38,354 nt of DNA, from contig JAHXHN010000006.1 in assembly GCA_025656675.1 (NCBI GenBank), forward strand, positions 1-38,354. The letters are read 5' to 3'. Origin of the DNA: Candidatus Thiodiazotropha sp. (ex Codakia rugifera). GTDB taxonomy: Bacteria > Pseudomonadota > Gammaproteobacteria > Chromatiales > Chromatiaceae. Position 1 is the first letter of the stretch, and each line of letters begins with the position of its first letter. The position numbers and the translations under genes were made by a program. This document shows, piece by piece, positions 2,398 through 11,737 of the stretch. Under the pieces are notes generated by a model. That model searched no databases, was not told the origin of the DNA, and saw only the letters and a list, made by a program, of their open reading frames with translations.

Positions 2398-2411
2398 TTG
2401 ATCCGTATCAA
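2398..2411. promoter_or_regulatory. FNR/DNR box between the hemerythrin gene and nirS
   Basis: TTGAT-CCGT-ATCAA is a perfect FNR/DNR palindrome. Its centre lies 108 bases upstream of the hemerythrin start and about 117 bases upstream of the inferred nirS transcription start. It probably serves the minus-strand hemerythrin group, although no good -10 element is visible on that strand, or it may add a second site to the nirS promoter. Confidence 0.7.
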
Positions 2412-2472: not shown

Positions 2473-2516
2473 TTGACCTTTGTCAAGGTGAGTAAGCCCA
2501 GCCGGGAGCCTAATCT
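2473..2516 (+). promoter_or_regulatory. nirS promoter: FNR/DNR-type box plus -10
   Basis: TTGAC-CTTT-GTCAA at 2473-2486 is a fully symmetric FNR/DNR-type site. A -10-like TAATCT lies at 2511-2516, placing the start of transcription near 2521-2523 and the box centre at about -42. The leader is then about 32 bases and carries the strong ribosome binding site GGGAGGAG (2539-2546) before the ATG at 2554. This is the architecture of NO- or anoxia-activated denitrification promoters. Confidence 0.75.
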
Positions 2517-2553: not shown

Positions 2554-4203
2554 ATGATTAAAAGTTCCCGGCCACGCGCACAATCTATTCTACACGCAAG
2601 TGCGCTTTCCATGGCAATCGGCATATCCATAGGTGGCATAGGGTCTTCCGCCCAAGCCGCTACACCCACACTCAGTGAAGCAGACTTCGAGGCATCCAAG
2701 ACCATCTACTTTCAGCGTTGTGCAGGCTGTCACGGCACGCTGCGTAAAGGTGCTACTGGCAAGAATTTAGAACCAAAGAACACCCAGAAACTGGGTCAAG
2801 AACGCCTTGAGAAAATCATCAGTTTCGGTACTGAAGGCGGCATGAACAACTTCGACGATATCATGAGCAAGGAAGAGATCTCGAAGATGGCCAAGTACAT
2901 ACAGCTGGAGCCACCCATTCCACCTGAGATGTCTTTGGCGCTGATGAAAGAGCGTCACAAAGTCTTTGTTGAGCCGAAAGATTACCCCACAAAACCCCTG
3001 CATGGTCGTAACTGGGAGAATTTCTTCCTGGTCATCGAGCGTGATGTGGGTAAAGTGGCCATCATCGACGGTGATACCAAAGAGATCGTGGCTCATGTCC
3101 CAACTGGCTATGCAGTACATGTACTGAAGGCTGTTGAGCACCATGACACCCTGAAAACAAAGGATCCGGGGCGTTTCTGGTACATCATGGGTCGTGACGG
3201 CATGATGACCAAGGTCGATCTGTGGCAAAATCCAGAGAAGATGAAGGTAGCCCAGGTTCAGGTTGCTTATGATGCTCGTGACGTTGCAGTATCCGGCGAC
3301 GGCAAATATGTTATTGGTGGCGGCTACTGGCCACCTCACTTTGTCATTGCTGATGCCAAAACAATGGAACCGCTGAAAGTGGTTTCTGCGCGTGGCGTCA
3401 ATGTTGATGGTGAATACGTCAACGAATCCCGTGTCGCTGCTGTGTATGACACACCCATGGCACCTAGCTGGCTGGTCTCTATGAAGGAACTGGGTCAGAT
3501 GTGGCAGGTTGACTACACGGACTTAGAAAACCTGAAGATCACCAAGATGGACACCGCCAAGTACCTGCATGATGGTTTCTATGATCCAACAGGTCGTTAT
3601 TTCCAGATTGCTGCCAACGCCTCGGACAAGATGGTTGTGGTAGACACCAAGACTCAGAAACTGGAAGCGATGATCGATACCGACAAAAAACCACATCCTG
3701 GTCCTGGTGCAAACTGGATCGATCCCAAATGTGGTCCTGTCGGCGGTACCACTCACTTGGGTGTAGGCAAGGTCACGGTTTGGGGTAATGACCCAGCTGG
3801 CCACAAAGACCAAGCCTGGAAGATCTGCTACGAAGTAGAAACTGACGGTCCCGGTGTTTTCATCCGCACCCATCCGAAGAGCGACTATTACTGGGCAGAT
3901 CAGACCAAGCATCCAGAACCTGAAGTCCAGCAATCGCTCCAGGTCATCTCCAAGAAGACCCGCGAGATTGTCAAGACCATTCGCTTGACCGAGAAGACCG
4001 GCTACGCCGCTGTACACATCGAGTTCAATAACGATGGTTCAGAGGTATGGACTTCTGTCTGGAATCGTAAGGACAGTAAAGAGCCCAACGGTGAGATCAT
4101 CATCTTTGACACCAAGACCCTCGAAGAGAAGGCGCGCATCAAAGGATTGTACGCACCTACTGGTAAGTTCAACGTGCATAACCGCGTTCATCACGTCACC
4201 TGA
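2554..4203 (+). CDS. nirS: Cytochrome cd1 nitrite reductase, divergent NirS
   Basis: Periplasmic NirS reduces nitrite to NO. The start at 2554 is set by GGGAGGAG and a signal peptide ending Ala-Gln-Ala near residue 35; 549 residues in all. Haem c is bound at CAGCH (56-60), with Met97 the likely second ligand. The beta-propeller for haem d1 has the proximal ligand in Gly-Tyr-Ala-Val-His (His189) and the second pocket His in Leu-His-Asp-Gly (His339). It ends in a Pro-Thr-Gly-Lys-Phe-Asn-Val family motif. Oddly, the segment that in Pseudomonas NirS carries the first distal histidine (Ser-His-Glu-His-Pro-Glu-Phe) here reads Asp-Thr-Pro-Met-Ala-Pro-Ser-Trp (299-306), and the N-terminal arm with the tyrosine is missing. 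The rest, especially the haem c domain, is much closer to NirS than to NirN. No haem d1 biosynthesis genes are in the window. Confidence 0.9.
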   Translation: MIKSSRPRAQSILHASALSMAIGISIGGIGSSAQAATPTLSEADFEASKTIYFQRCAGCHGTLRKGATGKNLEPKNTQKLGQERLEKIISFGTEGGMNNFDDIMSKEEISKMAKYIQLEPPIPPEMSLALMKERHKVFVEPKDYPTKPLHGRNWENFFLVIERDVGKVAIIDGDTKEIVAHVPTGYAVHVLKAVEHHDTLKTKDPGRFWYIMGRDGMMTKVDLWQNPEKMKVAQVQVAYDARDVAVSGDGKYVIGGGYWPPHFVIADAKTMEPLKVVSARGVNVDGEYVNESRVAAVYDTPMAPSWLVSMKELGQMWQVDYTDLENLKITKMDTAKYLHDGFYDPTGRYFQIAANASDKMVVVDTKTQKLEAMIDTDKKPHPGPGANWIDPKCGPVGGTTHLGVGKVTVWGNDPAGHKDQAWKICYEVETDGPGVFIRTHPKSDYYWADQTKHPEPEVQQSLQVISKKTREIVKTIRLTEKTGYAAVHIEFNNDGSEVWTSVWNRKDSKEPNGEIIIFDTKTLEEKARIKGLYAPTGKFNVHNRVHHVT

Positions 4204-4236
4204 TGATGTGCTGCTGGTACGCACTTAGCTGAGAAT

Positions 4237-4271
4237 AAGGCGGATATGCGGCTATGCCCCATGTCCGCCTT
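4237..4271 (+). terminator. Hairpin after nirS, possible attenuator
   Basis: AAGGCGGATATG (4237-4248) pairs with CATGTCCGCCTT (ending 4271) except for one weak position. No T tract follows, so this is more likely a partial terminator or an mRNA-stabilising 3' hairpin that lets nirS be expressed above the downstream cytochrome genes. Confidence 0.45.
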
Positions 4272-4346
4272 GTTCACCGACATCTGCACCATACGCAATC
4301 CTGCGCTGGTGTATCACCTGACCATTGTGACCTGACGGGGTAAGCG

Positions 4347-7154
4347 ATGCATCAGCACTCTCTATTTAAAAGCCTACTTTCACGCAAAGTCGCATTCGGT
4401 GCGACCCTGGGTAGTGCTGTCCTGTTCATGGTCATTGGCGTCATCGTATGGGGTGGCTTCAATACAGTTATGGAAGCTACCAATACCATGGAATTCTGTA
4501 TCTCTTGCCATGAAATGGAAGAGAATGTCTATCAGGAGTACAAAGGTACACCACACGATGGCAACCGCAGTGGCGTGGGCGCAGGATGCCCGGACTGCCA
4601 TGTACCCCGTCCATGGGTGCACAAGATTGTAAGAAAAATCAAAGCCAGTAACGAGATTTGGCACAAGCTCATGGGGACCGTGGATACCCCGGAAAAATTT
4701 GAACAACATAGGCTTACCATGGCTCGCCGCGTATGGAGTGCCATGAAAGAGACCGATTCACGAGAGTGCCGCAACTGTCATGACTGGGATACCATGAATC
4801 CTGAAAGACAGAAGCCTCGAGCACGCAATCAACATGTGTTCGCCATGGAGAATGGCAACACCTGCATTGACTGTCATAAAGGTATTGCTCATAAAGCGGT
4901 CCATAAAGAAATCAGTGAAGAGGAATTGGAAGAGTGGGCACAACCCATCGAGTCCTACAAAACCGAAATTCCAGCATCCTTCAAACTCGGGCTTTTAAGA
5001 GCCGCAGAGACTGAAGCTGAGGCTGAAGCAGCGGCACAACTCGCGACCCAAAAGGAACGTGATCGGCGTAAAGCTCAAGCTTTGGCGCAACAACAAAAAA
5101 TCGATGCGGCTGTTGCTCAGGCACTCGCCGCTCAAGGACAGAACAAACCAGCTGCATCCACAGCGACGCCCCCTAGCGCCGGTGTAACCACGCAGGGGTT
5201 TGGTGTCGATTGGAGCGCATCACCAACACGCCAGATCACACTCTTCTATCCTGGCCAGACATCCATGGAGTGGACCCTCGTAGGTAAATTCCATGGTGGT
5301 GCCCGACCTTTCAAGGCAGGTGATCGTTGCACAACCTGCCACGAAAAAGAGACGGCCGATATGGGCCAGAGGATGGTCACAGGACAAAAGGCAGAACCAA
5401 CACCCCCAGAGGGTAAACGAGCCGCTATCCCTGTTTCAGTACAGGCGGCACATGATGAGAGTAACCTCTATTTTCGCTTCCAATGGGAAGATACCGACCA
5501 TGTCCCGGTCCCTTTTATTGAAGGCGGTAAAATGGATCCCGACAATCAGATTAAGTTGGCACTGATGTTGGCTACCGATGAAGTAGAGTACGCTTCGCAA
5601 GCCGGTTGCTGGGGCACCTGCCACGAAGATTTGCGTACGATGCCCGGGCATCCTGATGACCCTGCAGGCTCTGGCCTTAAACTCGATCTCACCAATGGCG
5701 TCACTAAATACATCAAAGAGTCACGCACCAAGGTCGAGGAGAAAGGTAGACGCGGTAAGAAACTGGGTGGTTGGGATAAACTCAAGGACGACAGCGCCCT
5801 TCAGACAGAGCGTGATGCTCACAAGTATATGGACCTGGTACGCTGGAACAGTAACGGCAAGGTAGAAAATGGCCATGTACTAGAGCAGCGTCTGATGAAT
5901 GATGGTAGCGCTATTGAGGCACAAGGATGGAAGGATGCAGGCATCTGGACTGTTGTGATCAAGCGTCCATTGACATCCACTACAGCAGGCGACCTGTCAA
6001 TTGAACCAGGCACCCTATACAACTTCGGCTTTGCCATTCATGATGACTACACCAGTGCCCGCTTTCATCATGTCTCACTCGGCTATAAGTTTGGACTGGA
6101 CAATAGCGAAGCCGAGCTGAATGCTGTAAAAGCCAAGGTTGACTCACCTGTTGCCACATCGTCAATGGCAGCAGCTGCAGCACCCGCCGGCCAGCAAGCA
6201 GCAGCAACCAATGAAAGTATCGACTGGTCTAAATCCAGTGAACGTCAGATCACCCTCTTCTATCCTGGACAGACCTCGATGGAATGGACGCTCGTGGGTA
6301 AGTACCATGGTGGTGCCCGTCCTTTTCGTGCAGGCGATCGTTGCACAACCTGCCATGAAAAAGAGACGGCAGATATGGGGCAGAAGATGGTCACTGGCCA
6401 AAAAGCGGAACCAACGCCCCCCACAGGTAAACGGCCTGCCATCCCTGTCGCTGTACAGGCAACCCATGATGAAGAAAATCTCTATCTGAGATTTCAGTGG
6501 GAAGATACGCAACATGTCCCTGTTCCATTTGTCGATGGCGGCAAAATGGACCCGGAGAATCAGATCAAACTGGCATTGATGTTGGCAACCGACGAAGCGG
6601 AGTACGCCTCTCAGGCCGGTTGTTGGGGTACCTGCCATGAAGATCTACGCACGATGCCTGGACATCCGGAAGACCCGGCAGCCGCCGGTTTGAACCTGGA
6701 CGTCAATCAAGGTGTCACAAAGTACATTAAAGAGTCACGCACCAAGGTAGAAGAAAAAGGACGGCGTGGTAAAAAGCTGGGGGGCTGGGATAAGCTAAAA
6801 TCTGATGGTGATATTCAAGCCGAGCTGAATGCCCATAAATTCATGGATCTAGTGAGAATCAGTAGTGGCACTGGGGCTGTTGAAGATGGGCACGTACTTG
6901 AACAACGTAGCATGAGTGGCGGCCAAGGCCTTAATGGCAGCATCAAGGAGGAAGCCGGTTATTGGACAGTGACACTGGAAAGGAAGTTGAAGTCAGATAA
7001 CCCGGGTGATATTACTATAGAACCCGGCAAGCTCTACAACTTCGGTTTCGCAATACATGACGACTACACGAATGCGCGCTTTCATCATGTATCACTTGGC
7101 TACAAGCTGGGATTGGACAATAACGAAGCTGAAATCAATGCTATGGCGCAATAG
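4347..7154 (+). CDS. NapC/NirT-type tetraheme cytochrome fused to two haem-binding EB_dh-like domains
   Basis: A 935-residue fusion. Residues 1-200 are a NapC/NirT quinol dehydrogenase: an N-terminal anchor helix (about 15-38) and four CxxCH sites near 51, 81, 141 and 173. An Ala/Glu/Gln-rich linker (about 215-285) follows, then two tandem copies (about 288-593 and 626-935) of a domain resembling the haem-binding subunit of ethylbenzene dehydrogenase/DMSO-reductase-family enzymes. Each copy adds one CxxCH (CTTCH) and one CxxxCH (CWGTCH), so up to eight covalent haems are possible. Known family role of NapC/NirT: passing electrons from membrane quinol to periplasmic reductases. Directly downstream of nirS, it is inferred to feed NirS, bypassing the bc1 complex. 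Ordinary NirT ends near residue 200, so most of this protein is an unusual addition. Confidence 0.85.
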   Translation: MHQHSLFKSLLSRKVAFGATLGSAVLFMVIGVIVWGGFNTVMEATNTMEFCISCHEMEENVYQEYKGTPHDGNRSGVGAGCPDCHVPRPWVHKIVRKIKASNEIWHKLMGTVDTPEKFEQHRLTMARRVWSAMKETDSRECRNCHDWDTMNPERQKPRARNQHVFAMENGNTCIDCHKGIAHKAVHKEISEEELEEWAQPIESYKTEIPASFKLGLLRAAETEAEAEAAAQLATQKERDRRKAQALAQQQKIDAAVAQALAAQGQNKPAASTATPPSAGVTTQGFGVDWSASPTRQITLFYPGQTSMEWTLVGKFHGGARPFKAGDRCTTCHEKETADMGQRMVTGQKAEPTPPEGKRAAIPVSVQAAHDESNLYFRFQWEDTDHVPVPFIEGGKMDPDNQIKLALMLATDEVEYASQAGCWGTCHEDLRTMPGHPDDPAGSGLKLDLTNGVTKYIKESRTKVEEKGRRGKKLGGWDKLKDDSALQTERDAHKYMDLVRWNSNGKVENGHVLEQRLMNDGSAIEAQGWKDAGIWTVVIKRPLTSTTAGDLSIEPGTLYNFGFAIHDDYTSARFHHVSLGYKFGLDNSEAELNAVKAKVDSPVATSSMAAAAAPAGQQAAATNESIDWSKSSERQITLFYPGQTSMEWTLVGKYHGGARPFRAGDRCTTCHEKETADMGQKMVTGQKAEPTPPTGKRPAIPVAVQATHDEENLYLRFQWEDTQHVPVPFVDGGKMDPENQIKLALMLATDEAEYASQAGCWGTCHEDLRTMPGHPEDPAAAGLNLDVNQGVTKYIKESRTKVEEKGRRGKKLGGWDKLKSDGDIQAELNAHKFMDLVRISSGTGAVEDGHVLEQRSMSGGQGLNGSIKEEAGYWTVTLERKLKSDNPGDITIEPGKLYNFGFAIHDDYTNARFHHVSLGYKLGLDNNEAEINAMAQ
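5208..7148 (+). repeat. Internal tandem duplication encoding the two EB_dh-like domains
   Basis: The two domain copies (about 5208-6125 and 6222-7148) are nearly collinear in protein sequence and still clearly alike at the DNA level, for example around the shared Phe-Tyr-Pro-Gly-Gln-Thr-Ser-Met-Glu-Trp and Lys-Gly-Arg-Arg-Gly-Lys-Lys-Leu-Gly-Gly-Trp-Asp segments. Differences are mostly at third codon positions, which indicates duplication under selection to keep the protein. An Ala-rich linker separates the copies. Confidence 0.85.
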
Positions 7155-7234
7155 CTGACTGCCCGAGCTTGATTCTATGATGATCAATGAGTGAAACCTT
7201 CTCCCTGTAGGGAAAAGGACAGGAGGTCTATCAA

Positions 7235-7570
7235 ATGGCACATCACAATCTTCTCGTCTCAGCCTTCATGTACCTGTTACTGGCCCAACCTGTCCTGGCA
7301 GAAGAAAGCGTGACCATCATCACTAAAGACTATAAGTTCGAACCAGAGGAAATCACAGTCAAAGTGGGTACCAAGGTACGCTGGGAGAATCACGAAAAAC
7401 GCCAATATCACAGCGCTTGGTTCGAGATTTTAGGCGAGGAGCCCGGTGACTACTTCTTCCCTGGTGATGTCAGGGAACGCACATTCGATAAACCAGGCAC
7501 CTACCATTATATCTGTGAACCACATCATGAAAGCCACAATATGAAAGGGGTGATTCACGTTGTGGAGTAA
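7235..7570 (+). CDS. Periplasmic cupredoxin (small blue-copper-like protein)
   Basis: A 111-residue protein with a signal peptide (cleavage near Leu-Ala-Glu, residue 22) and a single plastocyanin/amicyanin-like fold. Likely copper ligands are His59 in Tyr-His-Ser-Ala-Trp, Cys94, His97 and Met103; the Cys-x2-His-x5-Met loop is one residue longer than in plastocyanin. An AGGAGG ribosome binding site sits at a good distance. Cupredoxins such as azurin and pseudoazurin are soluble electron donors to nitrite reductases; placed between the NapC fusion and a multiheme cytochrome downstream of nirS, this one is inferred to do that job. Its last codons overlap the next gene, so the two are translationally coupled. 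Confidence 0.85.
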   Translation: MAHHNLLVSAFMYLLLAQPVLAEESVTIITKDYKFEPEEITVKVGTKVRWENHEKRQYHSAWFEILGEEPGDYFFPGDVRERTFDKPGTYHYICEPHHESHNMKGVIHVVE

Positions 7571-8462
7571 ACAACGCCCACTAGCCGATTTACCTCAAGC
7601 AAATACCAAGCACACAACCCGACAGAGCGTTCCTGTTCAGCTGACTGTCGCACTGCTTGTCTCATTTTTAGCCCTATCACAGCCTGCAGTCGCTAATGAT
7701 GAAACAACCATTGAACAACTCCCTGATTCCCTCGGACAGTGGTACAAACCTGTGAACAAAAGGCAGGTCTGGCTACATACCATGTTTGCATTACGTCGAG
7801 AAATGCAAGCTGTTGATGAGTATGCAGCTCTGAGGGACTTACCTCGGCTAAAAAAATGGAGCGATAAGTTTATACAACATTTTAAACAGCTTCCGGAAAT
7901 GGTCCCTGAATGGGATGATGAATTGGAACTGGACGAGATTGCTCGTCTTGATACGGAGGTCAACCAAGGCGATTTTAAAGCTGTTTCCCAGACGCTAGCG
8001 AGAATTTCCCGTAATTGTAGAGCCTGTCATCGCGACTATCGTGCACTGGCTGCAGTACGATATCGTACAGCCGATTTCTCGCAGGTATCGATATCTGATA
8101 ATGAACAGGGTGAAATCAGCTATACCGACCACATGAAAGCACTCTCTCGCAACATCAATCGCATCAAAATTGCCAGTGAGGACAGTCGCTGGAAAAGTGC
8201 ACAACAAGCCGCTGAAGCTCTGGAAGTCCAACTGGAACTACTGGGAAAGAGCTGCGATAACTGCCATAAGGACCAGCCACCCTACGAAAGAATCCTTGGC
8301 CGAACCAGTCAACAGATGCTTGACGAACTGGCTCAAGCAATTCATCAACACCAGCCCAAATTAACGGCAAGAAGGCTCGGTGAGACTGCCGTCAGTATCT
8401 GTGCTCGCTGCCATAGCGTACATCGCAGCTTGAGCGATATACGTCATCAACTCTTTCCCTAA
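7560..8462 (+). CDS. Periplasmic triheme cytochrome c, tandem cytochrome c'-like
   Basis: A 300-residue protein with three CxxCH sites: CRACH (153-157), CDNCH (232-236) and CARCH (281-285). The helical regions before the first and last sites, with CRACH followed by Arg-Asp-Tyr, resemble cytochrome c'/c-556 units, suggesting two such units plus an extra haem. A hydrophobic segment at 25-45 ending Ala-Val-Ala is a signal peptide or anchor. The best start is TTG at 7560, inside the end of the cupredoxin gene, with GAAAGGGG nine bases upstream; no ATG precedes the hydrophobic segment. Cytochrome c'-type proteins bind NO or carry electrons; its place in the nirS group suggests one of these. The substrate cannot be told from sequence. 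Confidence 0.8.
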   Translation: MWSKQRPLADLPQANTKHTTRQSVPVQLTVALLVSFLALSQPAVANDETTIEQLPDSLGQWYKPVNKRQVWLHTMFALRREMQAVDEYAALRDLPRLKKWSDKFIQHFKQLPEMVPEWDDELELDEIARLDTEVNQGDFKAVSQTLARISRNCRACHRDYRALAAVRYRTADFSQVSISDNEQGEISYTDHMKALSRNINRIKIASEDSRWKSAQQAAEALEVQLELLGKSCDNCHKDQPPYERILGRTSQQMLDELAQAIHQHQPKLTARRLGETAVSICARCHSVHRSLSDIRHQLFP

Positions 8463-8623: not shown

Positions 8624-8668
8624 ATGAAATATCTACCACGATACCCCTGGGAATATGCCCACAGGTAA
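8624..8668 (+). CDS. Possible 14-codon leader peptide overlapping the kinase start
   Basis: ATG at 8624 opens a short frame of 14 codons ending with TAA at 8666-8668, which overlaps the ATG of the CHASE kinase at 8655. The kinase start has only a weak ribosome binding site of its own, so coupled translation through this short frame is conceivable. The peptide has no recognisable features and may be chance. Confidence 0.2.
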   Translation: MKYLPRYPWEYAHR

Positions 8669-10661
8669 CGATATTAAGCATCTCGTCGACGAATTGCATG
8701 CCGCTACCATGCGCATGAAGCAACGTCTTACAGAGAGATACCTCGCAAAGGTTTCTGGTCAGCAAACACCAGAGAAAAGTAGTGATCCAAGATCGATCTG
8801 GTGGGGATACTTCCCAGTTGTACTGGTTGCTGTAATGGGGTTAGCAATAACAATTGCAGTATTTGTACAATCATTGAGTTGGGAGAGGAGTCGGGTAGAA
8901 ATTGCCTTTCATGAGGCATCTCAAGACAGAATCCTAGTCATTCAACGAGAAATAAAACATTCACTCGGCATCATTCATGACATTGCCACATTTTTTGAAG
9001 CATCTGAGATTGTAGGACGACGAGAGTTTCGTAAGTTTGTCGGTCCCGCGCTGAAAAACCAGGCGGGCATCAAGGCTCTGGAGTGGGTTCCTGTTGTACG
9101 TGCCGAGGACAGAGACACCTTTATCGAGGAGGCTCAGCACAGTTTTCCTCCCTTTCAGCTTCTCGAGTGGGATGGTTCGGGCAACCTGATCGAAGGCAGG
9201 CATCGATCCACCTACTATCCTGTCCTCTATATTCAGCCCTACCAACGCAACAAAGAAGCATTAGGCCTCGATATGGGTGTTGATCCAATCGTCTCGCAAT
9301 TATTGATTGAAGCTGAAATCTCCCGTGAGATTCAGGTCTCTCCGGGGATATATCTCCAGGATGATACAGATAAGAAGACAGGTATTGTGGTCGCTGTACC
9401 GGTATTTTTCAAAGACAACCCGTCCGAAACAACATCCACACAAGCACCCACAGAAATCAGAGGATTTGCCATTGGGATCTTCTATATTGGCGATGTTATT
9501 GAGCGCGCAATGGAGAGCCTGCGTACCGGTGGAATTGATATCCACTTTTACCAGGACCAATCGATAGGAAATGGACGACTGCTCTATAGCCACTATTCCC
9601 GGTTAGACGAAAACCCAATGTCCTATACTGATAGTGATGCACCTGAAATTTCTTATACCCAACAGATTATGGTTGGGAACCAGAAATGGCAGATTGTGTG
9701 TAATAGCGCATCTGAAAAGTTCACTGCCGATACCTGGAATAGTTGGATCATTTTTTTCGGGGGCATCGCATTTACCCTACTTTTCACCATCTATGTGGCA
9801 ACCCTAGTAGGGAGAGCCAGACAGGTACGTCTGGAAGTAGAAGAGAGAACATCCCAACTATGGGAAGTAGTACAGGCACTGAATCAGGAGGTAGTTGAAC
9901 GTAAATCGGCTGAACAGGAATTGCAGAGGTTAAACGAAACATTGGAACATCATATTGCCTACCGTACTGCTGAAGCAGAACGGCGGGCTCAGTACCTTGA
10001 ACAATTTGCCTATGTGACATCTCATGACTTAAAAGCCCCGCTTCGAGCGGTATCCAACCTGGCTCAATGGATTGAAGAGGATCTTACCGATAAATTGGAT
10101 GCCGCTTCAAGAGAACAACTTGCGTTGCTTCGTGACCGGGTGAGAAGGATGCATGACCTGATTGAGGGGCTGCTGGAGTATTCAAGGGTTGGCAGAACCT
10201 CCGATTCTGAAAGTGAGTTCGACTCTAACGAAATGATTAACGAAATCATCGATTCGCTCTCTCCACCTGAGGGATTCACAATCAAGATCAAGGGTAAGAT
10301 GCCAATACTGTATGCCGATCGGCTTCAACTTGGACAGGTATTCTCCAATCTGATCAGCAATAGTCTAAAACACCATGGGGGAGATAAGGGTAAGATTCGG
10401 ATCAGGTGTGAAATTATCGATGAATTTTATCAGTTCTCAGTTTGTGATGATGGGCAGGGAATTGCCCCGGAGTACCACAAAAAAGTGTTTATGATGTTCC
10501 AGACGCTGGAATCGAGTGATTTTGAGAGTAGTACAGGCATTGGATTAGCACTGGTCAAAAAAATTGTTGAGGAACATGGTGGCACAATAAGGTTAAAGTC
10601 TGCGATTGGGGAAGGCGCATGTTTTCACTTCACTTGGCCAATAAAACATGCATCTGAATAA
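8655..10661 (+). CDS. CHASE-domain sensor histidine kinase
   Basis: A 668-residue membrane kinase: cytoplasmic N-terminus, membrane helix about 50-72, a CHASE-type extracytoplasmic sensor domain about 75-340, a second helix about 360-388, a coiled-coil linker, a HisKA domain with the phospho-acceptor in Thr-Ser-His-Asp-Leu-Lys-Ala-Pro-Leu (about 455), and an HATPase domain with the N box (Asn-Leu-Ile-Ser-Asn-Ser-Leu-Lys), Asp-Asp-Gly-Gln-Gly and Gly-Ile-Gly-Leu-Ala boxes. The HisKA/HATPase pair is of the bacteriophytochrome-like type that usually works with a stand-alone receiver, and such a gene follows 48 bases downstream. The signal is unknown; CHASE domains bind small molecules or peptides. 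Confidence 0.9.
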   Translation: MPTGNDIKHLVDELHAATMRMKQRLTERYLAKVSGQQTPEKSSDPRSIWWGYFPVVLVAVMGLAITIAVFVQSLSWERSRVEIAFHEASQDRILVIQREIKHSLGIIHDIATFFEASEIVGRREFRKFVGPALKNQAGIKALEWVPVVRAEDRDTFIEEAQHSFPPFQLLEWDGSGNLIEGRHRSTYYPVLYIQPYQRNKEALGLDMGVDPIVSQLLIEAEISREIQVSPGIYLQDDTDKKTGIVVAVPVFFKDNPSETTSTQAPTEIRGFAIGIFYIGDVIERAMESLRTGGIDIHFYQDQSIGNGRLLYSHYSRLDENPMSYTDSDAPEISYTQQIMVGNQKWQIVCNSASEKFTADTWNSWIIFFGGIAFTLLFTIYVATLVGRARQVRLEVEERTSQLWEVVQALNQEVVERKSAEQELQRLNETLEHHIAYRTAEAERRAQYLEQFAYVTSHDLKAPLRAVSNLAQWIEEDLTDKLDAASREQLALLRDRVRRMHDLIEGLLEYSRVGRTSDSESEFDSNEMINEIIDSLSPPEGFTIKIKGKMPILYADRLQLGQVFSNLISNSLKHHGGDKGKIRIRCEIIDEFYQFSVCDDGQGIAPEYHKKVFMMFQTLESSDFESSTGIGLALVKKIVEEHGGTIRLKSAIGEGACFHFTWPIKHASE

Positions 10662-10709
10662 TTTAAAATATGGGAGATCCCCTGTTCGAGAGAGACAGGA
10701 AATGCGAAT

Positions 10710-11126
10710 ATGTTGAAAAATGATGAAACGATCTTACTGATCGAGGATGACCGAGTCGACATTATGACCGTTCAGCGCGCCCTAAAAAAGAACAAAATCA
10801 GTAATCCACTGCGTATCGCTCGAACCGGACTGGAAGCACTCGATATGCTTCGAGGAACACCCCAAAGCAAAAAAATCACCCCCTTACCAGCGCTCATTCT
10901 TCTGGATCTAAACCTACCAAAAATGAGTGGTATCGAGTTTTTACATGAACTACGCAATGATCCGGAGCTCAAAACACTGCGCATTATCGTACTCACCTCA
11001 TCCAATGAGCCCAAGGATCGTGCTGCCGCATTTGAGTATGATGTTGATGACTATATTGTAAAACCCCACTCATTTAATGAATTTACCCGAGCGGTTGCGA
11101 CCATTCTGGCGCTTTGGGATGATTAA
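10710..11126 (+). CDS. Single-domain response regulator (Rcp1/CheY-like)
   Basis: A 138-residue receiver domain with no output domain: acidic pair in Ile-Glu-Asp-Asp near residue 12, phospho-acceptor Asp in Leu-Leu-Asp-Leu-Asn-Leu-Pro near residue 70, Thr-Ser at about 96 and Lys in Val-Lys-Pro-His near 117. The ribosome binding site AGGAA precedes the ATG. It is the expected partner of the upstream CHASE kinase. With no DNA-binding or enzymatic domain it must act by protein contact or by passing phosphate to a further protein not seen here. Confidence 0.9.
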   Translation: MLKNDETILLIEDDRVDIMTVQRALKKNKISNPLRIARTGLEALDMLRGTPQSKKITPLPALILLDLNLPKMSGIEFLHELRNDPELKTLRIIVLTSSNEPKDRAAAFEYDVDDYIVKPHSFNEFTRAVATILALWDD

Positions 11127-11185
11127 ATCAGCCACTCAGACAAGTAGAGGAAAAAGCTGGTAGATATCGCAGTCTATCTGTGTTC

Positions 11186-11737
11186 CTAGGAATCCAATCT
11201 TGTCACCTTCATTATGCATTTGTCAGCACCGTCATGCATACACTGAGTTTCATTGATATCAAACCGTTCATTGAATTTCTCACCCAGGCCACGGATGATG
11301 CCCCTGACGACCGGACACAGTTGTCGATGGGACTGATAATGCACTATGAGGACATCATCAGAATCACGTACGGATGATAAGCGGGGAGGTTTTCGGTTAG
11401 GATTGTGCTTATGGATCACATCATGGATGCTACCACCGGCAGTTTCAATAACATCAAAGGTCTTCATCTCCTTGTTTTTTATATACATATGGTAAAAAGA
11501 GAGTAACTGAGGCCCAACATAGGAACCAAAGTCCTCCAGTATGACCGGGATAGGAGTATCCAATGCCTTGGATGCCGTTCCCACCAGCGCAAGAATCTCC
11601 TCATCCGGGTAGTCCTGAACAGGAAAGTAGAGTTTAAATTTATACCCCTGGGCCTCCAGTAGGGCCTTCCAAGTCGCTTCACCACCATGCCGTTCAATTA
11701 CGTAGTCACGCAGGAAATGAAATATTACGCCGTACAT
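11186..11737 (-). CDS. Stand-alone H-NOX (haem NO/O2-binding) protein
   Basis: A 183-residue protein starting with the family's Met-Tyr-Gly. The proximal haem ligand is His105 in Ser-Ile-His-Asp-Val-Ile, Pro118 is in the conserved Lys-Pro-Pro segment, and the haem-propionate motif Tyr-x-Ser-x-Arg is complete (Tyr134, Ser136, Arg138). It ends after the domain, so it works through a partner protein. Known family role: bacterial H-NOX binds NO and controls a histidine kinase or diguanylate cyclase, often to set biofilm formation. Its gene converges with the CHASE kinase/receiver pair and is not cotranscribed with them; a functional link is only a guess. Near nirS and a probable nor gene, NO sensing is the natural role. 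AGGAA precedes the start. Confidence 0.9.
   Translation of the reverse strand: MYGVIFHFLRDYVIERHGGEATWKALLEAQGYKFKLYFPVQDYPDEEILALVGTASKALDTPIPVILEDFGSYVGPQLLSFYHMYIKNKEMKTFDVIETAGGSIHDVIHKHNPNRKPPRLSSVRDSDDVLIVHYQSHRQLCPVVRGIIRGLGEKFNERFDINETQCMHDGADKCIMKVTRLDS

Follow-up and report, generated by a model that had tools for sequence, protein, structure and literature searches.

In the nirSTBM unit of Pseudomonas (Stutzerimonas) stutzeri, the gene for the nitrite reductase NirS is followed by genes for a tetraheme protein (NirT), a diheme protein (NirB), and cytochrome c551 (NirM). Proteins in which NirT and NirB are fused are already known in print: PMC13086519 reports a fused NirTB in Halomonas sp. 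2A, citing Li 2018, and also states that NirT is required for nitrite reduction in S. stutzeri. Related rows of genes are present in Azospirillum brasilense Sp7 (AMK58_RS28485) and Ruegeria sp. THAF33 (FIU92_RS19430), which encode a cytochrome D1 protein, a NapC/NirT family cytochrome, and a plastocyanin/azurin family protein in a row. Here we describe a variant from Candidatus Thiodiazotropha sp. (ex Codakia rugifera), in which NirT and two copies of NirB form a single polypeptide and a small copper protein (a cupredoxin) stands in place of c551. The cluster lies in a stretch of 38,354 nucleotides (JAHXHN010000006.1, positions 1 to 38,354), which we call the window and which is the start of contig C6 in a 4.65-Mb assembly. 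The closest named relatives of the window's proteins are from Candidatus Thiodiazotropha, and the fusion is 95% identical to that of the Lucinoma kastoroae symbiont; we take these bacteria to be sulfur-oxidising clam symbionts. The genes, and the parts of the fusion, are (lengths in amino acids, aa):

2554..4203, + strand: nirS, cytochrome cd1 nitrite reductase, 549 aa, with one CxxCH motif (Cytochrom_D1 plus class I cytochrome c)
4347..7154, + strand: nirT-nirB-nirB fusion, 935 aa, with six CxxCH and two CX3CH motifs (Cytochrom_NNT plus two EB_dh)
4347..4961, + strand: NirT/NapC part of the fusion, with an N-terminal membrane helix and four CxxCH motifs at residues 51, 81, 141, and 173 (PF03264, 239 bits)
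5199..6206, + strand: first NirB/EB_dh unit of the fusion, with CxxCH at residue 328 and CX3CH at residue 421 (PF09459)
6207..7151, + strand: second NirB/EB_dh unit of the fusion, with CxxCH at residue 666 and CX3CH at residue 759 (PF09459)
7235..7570, + strand: small cupredoxin with type-1 copper ligands H59, C94, H97, and M103 (PF00127, copper-binding)
7560..8462, + strand: triheme cytochrome whose first half is cytochrome c'-like (PF01322, 37 bits), with three CxxCH motifs

Taken in order, the four genes encode 1, 6, 0, and 3 CxxCH motifs.

The fusion can be identified by comparison with an unfused cluster in another genome of the same class (genome G162, locus L152), whose order is nirS, nirT, nirB, a c551-like gene, nirC, nirF, the D/L/G/H genes, nirJ, nirE, and nirN. 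This is the textbook nirSTBM order. NirT of this cluster has 202 amino acids and four CxxCH motifs, and its "nirB" encodes a separate EB_dh protein (a 336-aa frame) with the motifs CAACH and CWASCH. Its nirS is 46% identical to the window's, its NirT is 61% identical to the N-terminal part of our fusion over 176 residues, and its NirB is 42% identical to the first EB_dh unit over 311 alignment columns. Because the order of nirT and nirB, their heme motifs, and these identities all match the parts of the fusion, the window gene is nirT-nirB-nirB in one frame. A reading made from the sequence alone (the sequence-only reading) had described the gene as a hub foreign to nirSTBMCFDLGHJN operons; it is instead the T and B of that operon, with the B doubled. 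That the protein is NirT-NirB-NirB is nearly certain and that it serves NirS is likely; we hold the two together to be highly probable.

The cluster is thus a variant of the classical nirSTBM unit and not a new pathway: it is an ordinary donor set for denitrification whose fused and doubled form, with a copper protein where c551 would be, is unusual. As in P. stutzeri, the order is nirS, T, B, with a NapC-type tetraheme part and a diheme EB_dh-type unit, and the genome has the genes for heme d1; unlike in P. stutzeri, a single polypeptide comprises T and two copies of B, nirM has given its place to a cupredoxin gene, and the d1 genes are on another contig. (The argument that NirB of P. stutzeri would be an EB_dh protein comes from the separate protein of L152 and the names of its relatives, rather than from a named stutzeri sequence. 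Among the best 120 of these relatives, which have about 290 amino acids, those with names are from Pseudomonas, Thauera, Bordetella, Aromatoleum, and others, and some bear names like "Cytochrome c-552/DMSO reductas...".) The protein of Halomonas sp. 2A, as described in PMC13086519, likewise joins NirT and NirB, whereas ours is NirT-NirB-NirB. By their coordinates, the fusions of A. brasilense Sp7 and Ruegeria sp. THAF33 have 540 and 594 amino acids, so they have room for one EB_dh unit, unlike the window's. Among the listings and passages that our literature searches yielded, none dealt with a doubled NirB or with a cupredoxin following nirT, and the abstract and passages of PMC10999283 contain no mention of nirT, NapC, or cupredoxin.

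The N-terminal part of the fusion scores 239.3 bits against PF03264 (the cut-off is 24.1), and the second EB_dh unit is 77% identical to the first. In an alignment, the two CX3CH motifs are C421-H426 and C759-H764. The sequence-only reading had called the protein an octaheme-scale hub, and this fits, because six CxxCH and two CX3CH motifs would allow up to eight c-type hemes. CX3CH is termed an atypical, putative heme-binding motif in PMC6295460. We found CX3CH in all 80 of the loci described below, and GCWxxCH in 36 of 36 rows of the EB_dh alignment. Each NirB unit would carry two covalent hemes, with the one at CX3CH putative. In a structural model of a single EB_dh unit, the fold is that of the heme subunits EBDH gamma and NXR-C. 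Those subunits belong to molybdoenzymes, while the units of the window have two covalent-heme motifs each and are fused to a domain of the quinol dehydrogenase type. Both heme motifs lie in or beside stretches of this model whose confidence is too low for a reading of heme packing.

The fusion is closely linked to nirS. A scan with two NapC-domain peptides gave at least 576 confirmed relatives, and we studied the best 80 loci in named genome records (so distant relatives are under-sampled). In 69 of these 80 loci, a NirS-type frame on the same strand is directly upstream of the fusion, with a median of 95 bases (at most 443) from the stop of NirS to the next frame. Eight of the remaining 11 loci start less than 300 bases from the edge of a contig (L019, L037, L041, L048, L057, L063, L086, and L092); in the other three, there is a run of N upstream (L051), NirS is on the other strand and the fusion is in two frames (L089), or a molybdoenzyme precedes the fusion (L087, discussed below). 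We also considered a sample of 321 genomes of the class, including the window's own. EB_dh was found in 49 of these, 62 gave a NirS match with an E value of 1e-60 or better, and 23 had the fused gene by a count made by hand. NirS is directly upstream in 22 of the 23, and in the last (G147) the locus is cut by the end of a contig inside a nir cluster. (G094 and G290 have a fragment of NirS upstream, where the contig ends; the fusions of G154 and G208 are each divided between two contigs.) Furthermore, all 20 of the NirS loci that we examined with at least 71% identity, including the window's, continue with the fusion. The sequence-only reading had tied the NapC-EB_dh fusion to this type of nirS and would have been contradicted by a fusion equally common away from it. 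In these samples the fused gene is not, as the counts above show; among class genomes, nirS precedes it in 22 of the 22 that could be judged. Since the order of nirS and the fusion recurs in dozens of other genomes, chance is excluded for this gene set. Among the sequences sampled, NirS proteins of one large branch, from Gamma- and Alphaproteobacteria, come with a fused donor.

Of the 74 loci in which 600 or more bases are available beyond the fusion, 55 have a cupredoxin as the next gene. H59, C94, H97, and M103, which we take to be the type-1 copper ligands, are conserved in all 60 aligned sequences. In all 66 loci tested (49 with the cupredoxin and 17 without it), the 2.5 kb downstream contained no NirM-like gene. 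Where it is present, the copper protein thus occupies the position of nirM. The triheme cytochrome is another matter. Relatives of it were found in just 9 of 80 loci, at varying places in the nir region (our genome has one copy), and we take it as optional to the set. The proposal that nirS has dedicated neighbours is supported.

We built quick trees (with FastTree) of NirS and of the EB_dh units. In the tree of NirS, which kept 96 rows after filtering by score and length, one branch of 81 rows belongs to the fused clusters. (The "single" labels of class loci were set from frame lengths, L140 is cut by a contig end, and the upstream NirS of the tandem pair in L130 is not itself followed by the fusion.) The other branch of 15 contains nine NirS without a fusion, the unfused G162, four Alphaproteobacteria with a fusion, and the second NirS of L045, which is not itself followed by one. 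The tree of EB_dh units has 82 rows, as the letter pattern we used dropped many rows with a single unit (Ruegeria, the pairs L101, L104, and L117, and others); L014 and L155 are shown as single owing to contig cuts and L025 is ambiguous. Eight separate NirB proteins fall on one side of this tree. As for the doubled proteins, their two units cluster according to lineage, in four sets: Thiodiazotropha together with a Chromatiales bacterium, Sedimenticola, a group of Polarisedimenticolaceae, and one further gamma group. Because the units group by lineage, NirB was either doubled several times or its copies were homogenised; it seems that the unit was doubled in several lineages.

The trees of NirS and EB_dh disagree for L058, L068, L072, and L078 (alphaproteobacterial or unplaced proteobacterial), which have a fused NirTB yet a NirS of the other branch. 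These four suggest an exchange of partners. Separately, L130 (in G219) and L045 each have two NirS-type genes, which are adjacent in tandem in L130. According to PMC5728499, nirT is next to two copies of nirS in the sulfur oxidiser Candidatus Venteria ishoeyi.

The sequence-only reading was right to call the first gene nirS. Residues 103-614 of the 615-aa open frame align to a solved NirS structure (1bl9_A, 448 bits), with lower scores to 6rtd (190 bits) and NirF (79 bits). The active-site stretches LHDG and PHPG, whose histidines are presumably the distal histidines over heme d1, are both retained, and the first histidine is at the position that is alanine in 1hzu. On this alignment, the protein is a true NirS of the cytochrome cd1 type, with reduction of nitrite to nitric oxide (NO) as its likely activity. 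Our search of the genome found no other NirS-type match. There are three strong d1 proteins in the genome, of which two are on contig C14. We considered whether a second NirS was among them and rejected this: of the pair on C14, one is a NirN-type protein, which matches 6rtd best (602 bits, versus 106 bits to NirS), and the other is, by order and size, NirF. The cluster on C14 contains nirE (a uroporphyrinogen-III methyltransferase), nirC (a small cytochrome), nirF, three nirD/L/G/H genes (AhbA/AhbB-type siroheme decarboxylases), nirJ (629 bits versus a cut-off of 515), a small gene with one CxxCH, and nirN, in that order; nirE, nirC, nirF, and the D/L/G/H letters were assigned by gene order. 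The predicted genes for heme d1 biosynthesis are thus present, on C14 rather than beside nirS. NosZ is also encoded in the genome, as are three further NapC-type proteins, which are above the cut-off along most of the profile. The small gene between nirJ and nirN (C14 5945-6412, locus L008 in the window's own genome, G000) has no match in NCBIfam and is also found in L013; from its sequence, the product would be cytochrome c'-like.

How might electrons reach NirS, which would reduce nitrite to NO in the periplasm? From what is established for NapC and NirT, the membrane-anchored tetraheme part would take electrons from quinol. The two diheme units could then relay them outward, and the cupredoxin, in the place of nirM, could shuttle them to NirS or act as a parallel soluble donor. 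A complete route from quinol to nitrite that bypasses bc1, as the sequence-only reading proposed, is possible. A broader reading is less likely than not: NirT-NirB-NirB would be a membrane-tethered wire with two docking or storage units, which several lineages would have acquired independently when NirB was duplicated in tandem. It would feed NirS via a copper protein dedicated to this purpose, in place of c551, and nitrite reduction would then be independent of bc1; the same NapC-EB_dh module would have been exchanged among NirS, type II molybdoenzymes, and MtrAB-like conduits.

Several observations weigh against a fused NirT-derived donor dedicated to NirS. The fusion scores 254.3 bits against TIGR02161 (napC_nirT), below its cut-off of 310.6, while the unfused NirT of L152 passes with 317; because of this, we file the N-terminal part as a NirT-derived domain and not as a plain member of that subfamily. 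The structural model of the whole protein is poor (predicted local distance difference test, pLDDT, of 57); it has a helix at residues 10-44. Of the 74 loci that could be judged for a cupredoxin behind the fusion, 19 gave none. We examined the neighbours of ten NirS loci of lower identity (45-51%), and nine have no NapC-type gene within up to 1.5 kb on either side (the tenth is the unfused G162), so NirS does not need the fusion partner in general. In Rhodoplanes (L087), the fusion follows the alpha and beta subunits of an enzyme of the type II dimethyl sulfoxide (DMSO) reductase family. Finally, the genome offers other possible routes, as it encodes a cytochrome c1 and also three proteins that are clearly c551-like.

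The Rhodoplanes locus bears on another explanation, that NapC-EB_dh is a general quinol dehydrogenase module for any periplasmic or outer-membrane acceptor and that nirS is merely its commonest neighbour. This also agrees with five class genomes that lack a NirS match at E 1e-60 and have adjoining, unfused genes for NapC and EB_dh (G037, G179, G310, G194, and G211). All of the cases without nirS in the class sample are unfused, however, and the fused form is behind nirS in nearly all of the loci that could be judged, as described above. We consider a general module rather unlikely. In L087 (4521-11704), the alpha and beta subunits are both above the cut-offs of their profiles, a chaperone-type gene also precedes the fusion, and the fusion stands where a gamma subunit is expected, looking as if such a subunit had been joined to a quinol dehydrogenase of its own.

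Another explanation is that NirS is fed mainly via bc1 and soluble carriers (c551-like cytochromes and the cupredoxin) and that the NirT part mainly activates NirS by reducing it. The cytochrome c1 and the c551-like proteins of the genome would allow this, and Zajicek 2004, going by its title, reportedly concerns the activation of cd1 by NapC. Instead, the close linkage to nirS and the fact that NirB was doubled more than once suggest a steady-state carrier, and we find a mainly activating role doubtful.

It is very improbable that the EB_dh units have no relation to nitrite and serve as gamma subunits for a molybdoenzyme that is missing: the fusion scores just 43.8 bits against TIGR03477 (the gamma subunit of type II DMSO reductases, with a cut-off of 169.85), no molybdoenzyme was found among the 23 window proteins scanned (which do not cover every frame), and each unit has two c-type heme motifs and the position and identity of NirB. 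On the score and the identity to NirB, we also rejected an aromatic system for the units.

With the NirT-NirB-NirB identity, three database names that have hidden one another ("NapC/NirT family", "ethylbenzene dehydrogenase-related", and "cytochrome C552") are linked to NirT and NirB, and EB_dh matches in denitrifiers need not signal the oxidation of hydrocarbons. The old question of whether electrons reach NirS by bc1 or by a direct route from quinol becomes testable in a tractable host such as A. brasilense Sp7.

Pairs of unfused NapC and EB_dh genes have other neighbours. In G037, the pair is beside an 11-heme cytochrome and an MtrB/PioB porin. In L171 (3381-8374), NapC and a NirB-like EB_dh protein are encoded behind an 11-heme cytochrome and an MtrB/PioB porin, in a genome without a NirS match at E 1e-60, and it is possible that this pair is used for extracellular electron transfer. 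The pair in G310 is beside a protein with a weak porin match, below the cut-off, and the pair in G179 is beside a protein with one CxxCH and no match in Pfam.

A motif scan identified two candidate regulatory sites before nirS:

2398..2411, + strand: FNR/DNR-type box TTGATCCGTATCAA, upstream of nirS
2473..2486, + strand: FNR/DNR-type box TTGACCTTTGTCAA, upstream of nirS

There are three such boxes in the whole window, and 3 of 100 shuffles had as many. Among relatives, 45 of 60 have a box within 450 bp upstream of the NirS homology, and about 0.04 per 450 bp would be expected (estimated from all 80 loci). This points to regulation of nirS by a factor of the FNR/DNR type. Between 1300 and 8800, patterns of the sigma-70 type and patterns resembling terminators were no more frequent than expected by chance. 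The gap between nirS and the fusion (4204-4346) contains an inverted repeat, AAGGCGGA...TCCGCCTT, without a run of T; it could limit read-through from nirS.

As the sequence-only reading stated, four periplasmic redox genes are in a row on one strand and the last two overlap; the overlap of 11 bases rests on a TTG start for the triheme cytochrome, which is the only ATG, GTG, or TTG in its first 60 codons. The overlap is not conserved in L013, as the homologous triheme frame opens about 70 bases past the stop of the copper gene there. The frame of nirS (2554-4203) is nested in a longer open frame from 2356. We prefer the start at 2554 because it gives a signal peptide and is preceded by a purine-rich site, as read from the sequence.

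A scan of the window with Rfam gave no match at the gathering threshold, and a plasmid search with the whole stretch gave no match. Divergent from nirS is a gene for a bacteriohemerythrin (1730-2380, - strand; NF033749, above the cut-off), possibly a sensor or scavenger of O2 or NO, and a hemerythrin frame is divergent just upstream of NirS in 15 of 80 loci (counted by hand). On the other side, at 8655-11737 and adjoining the NO-forming reductase, the window encodes a CHASE-domain histidine kinase, a single-domain response regulator, and a Haem-NO-binding (H-NOX) protein on the other strand.

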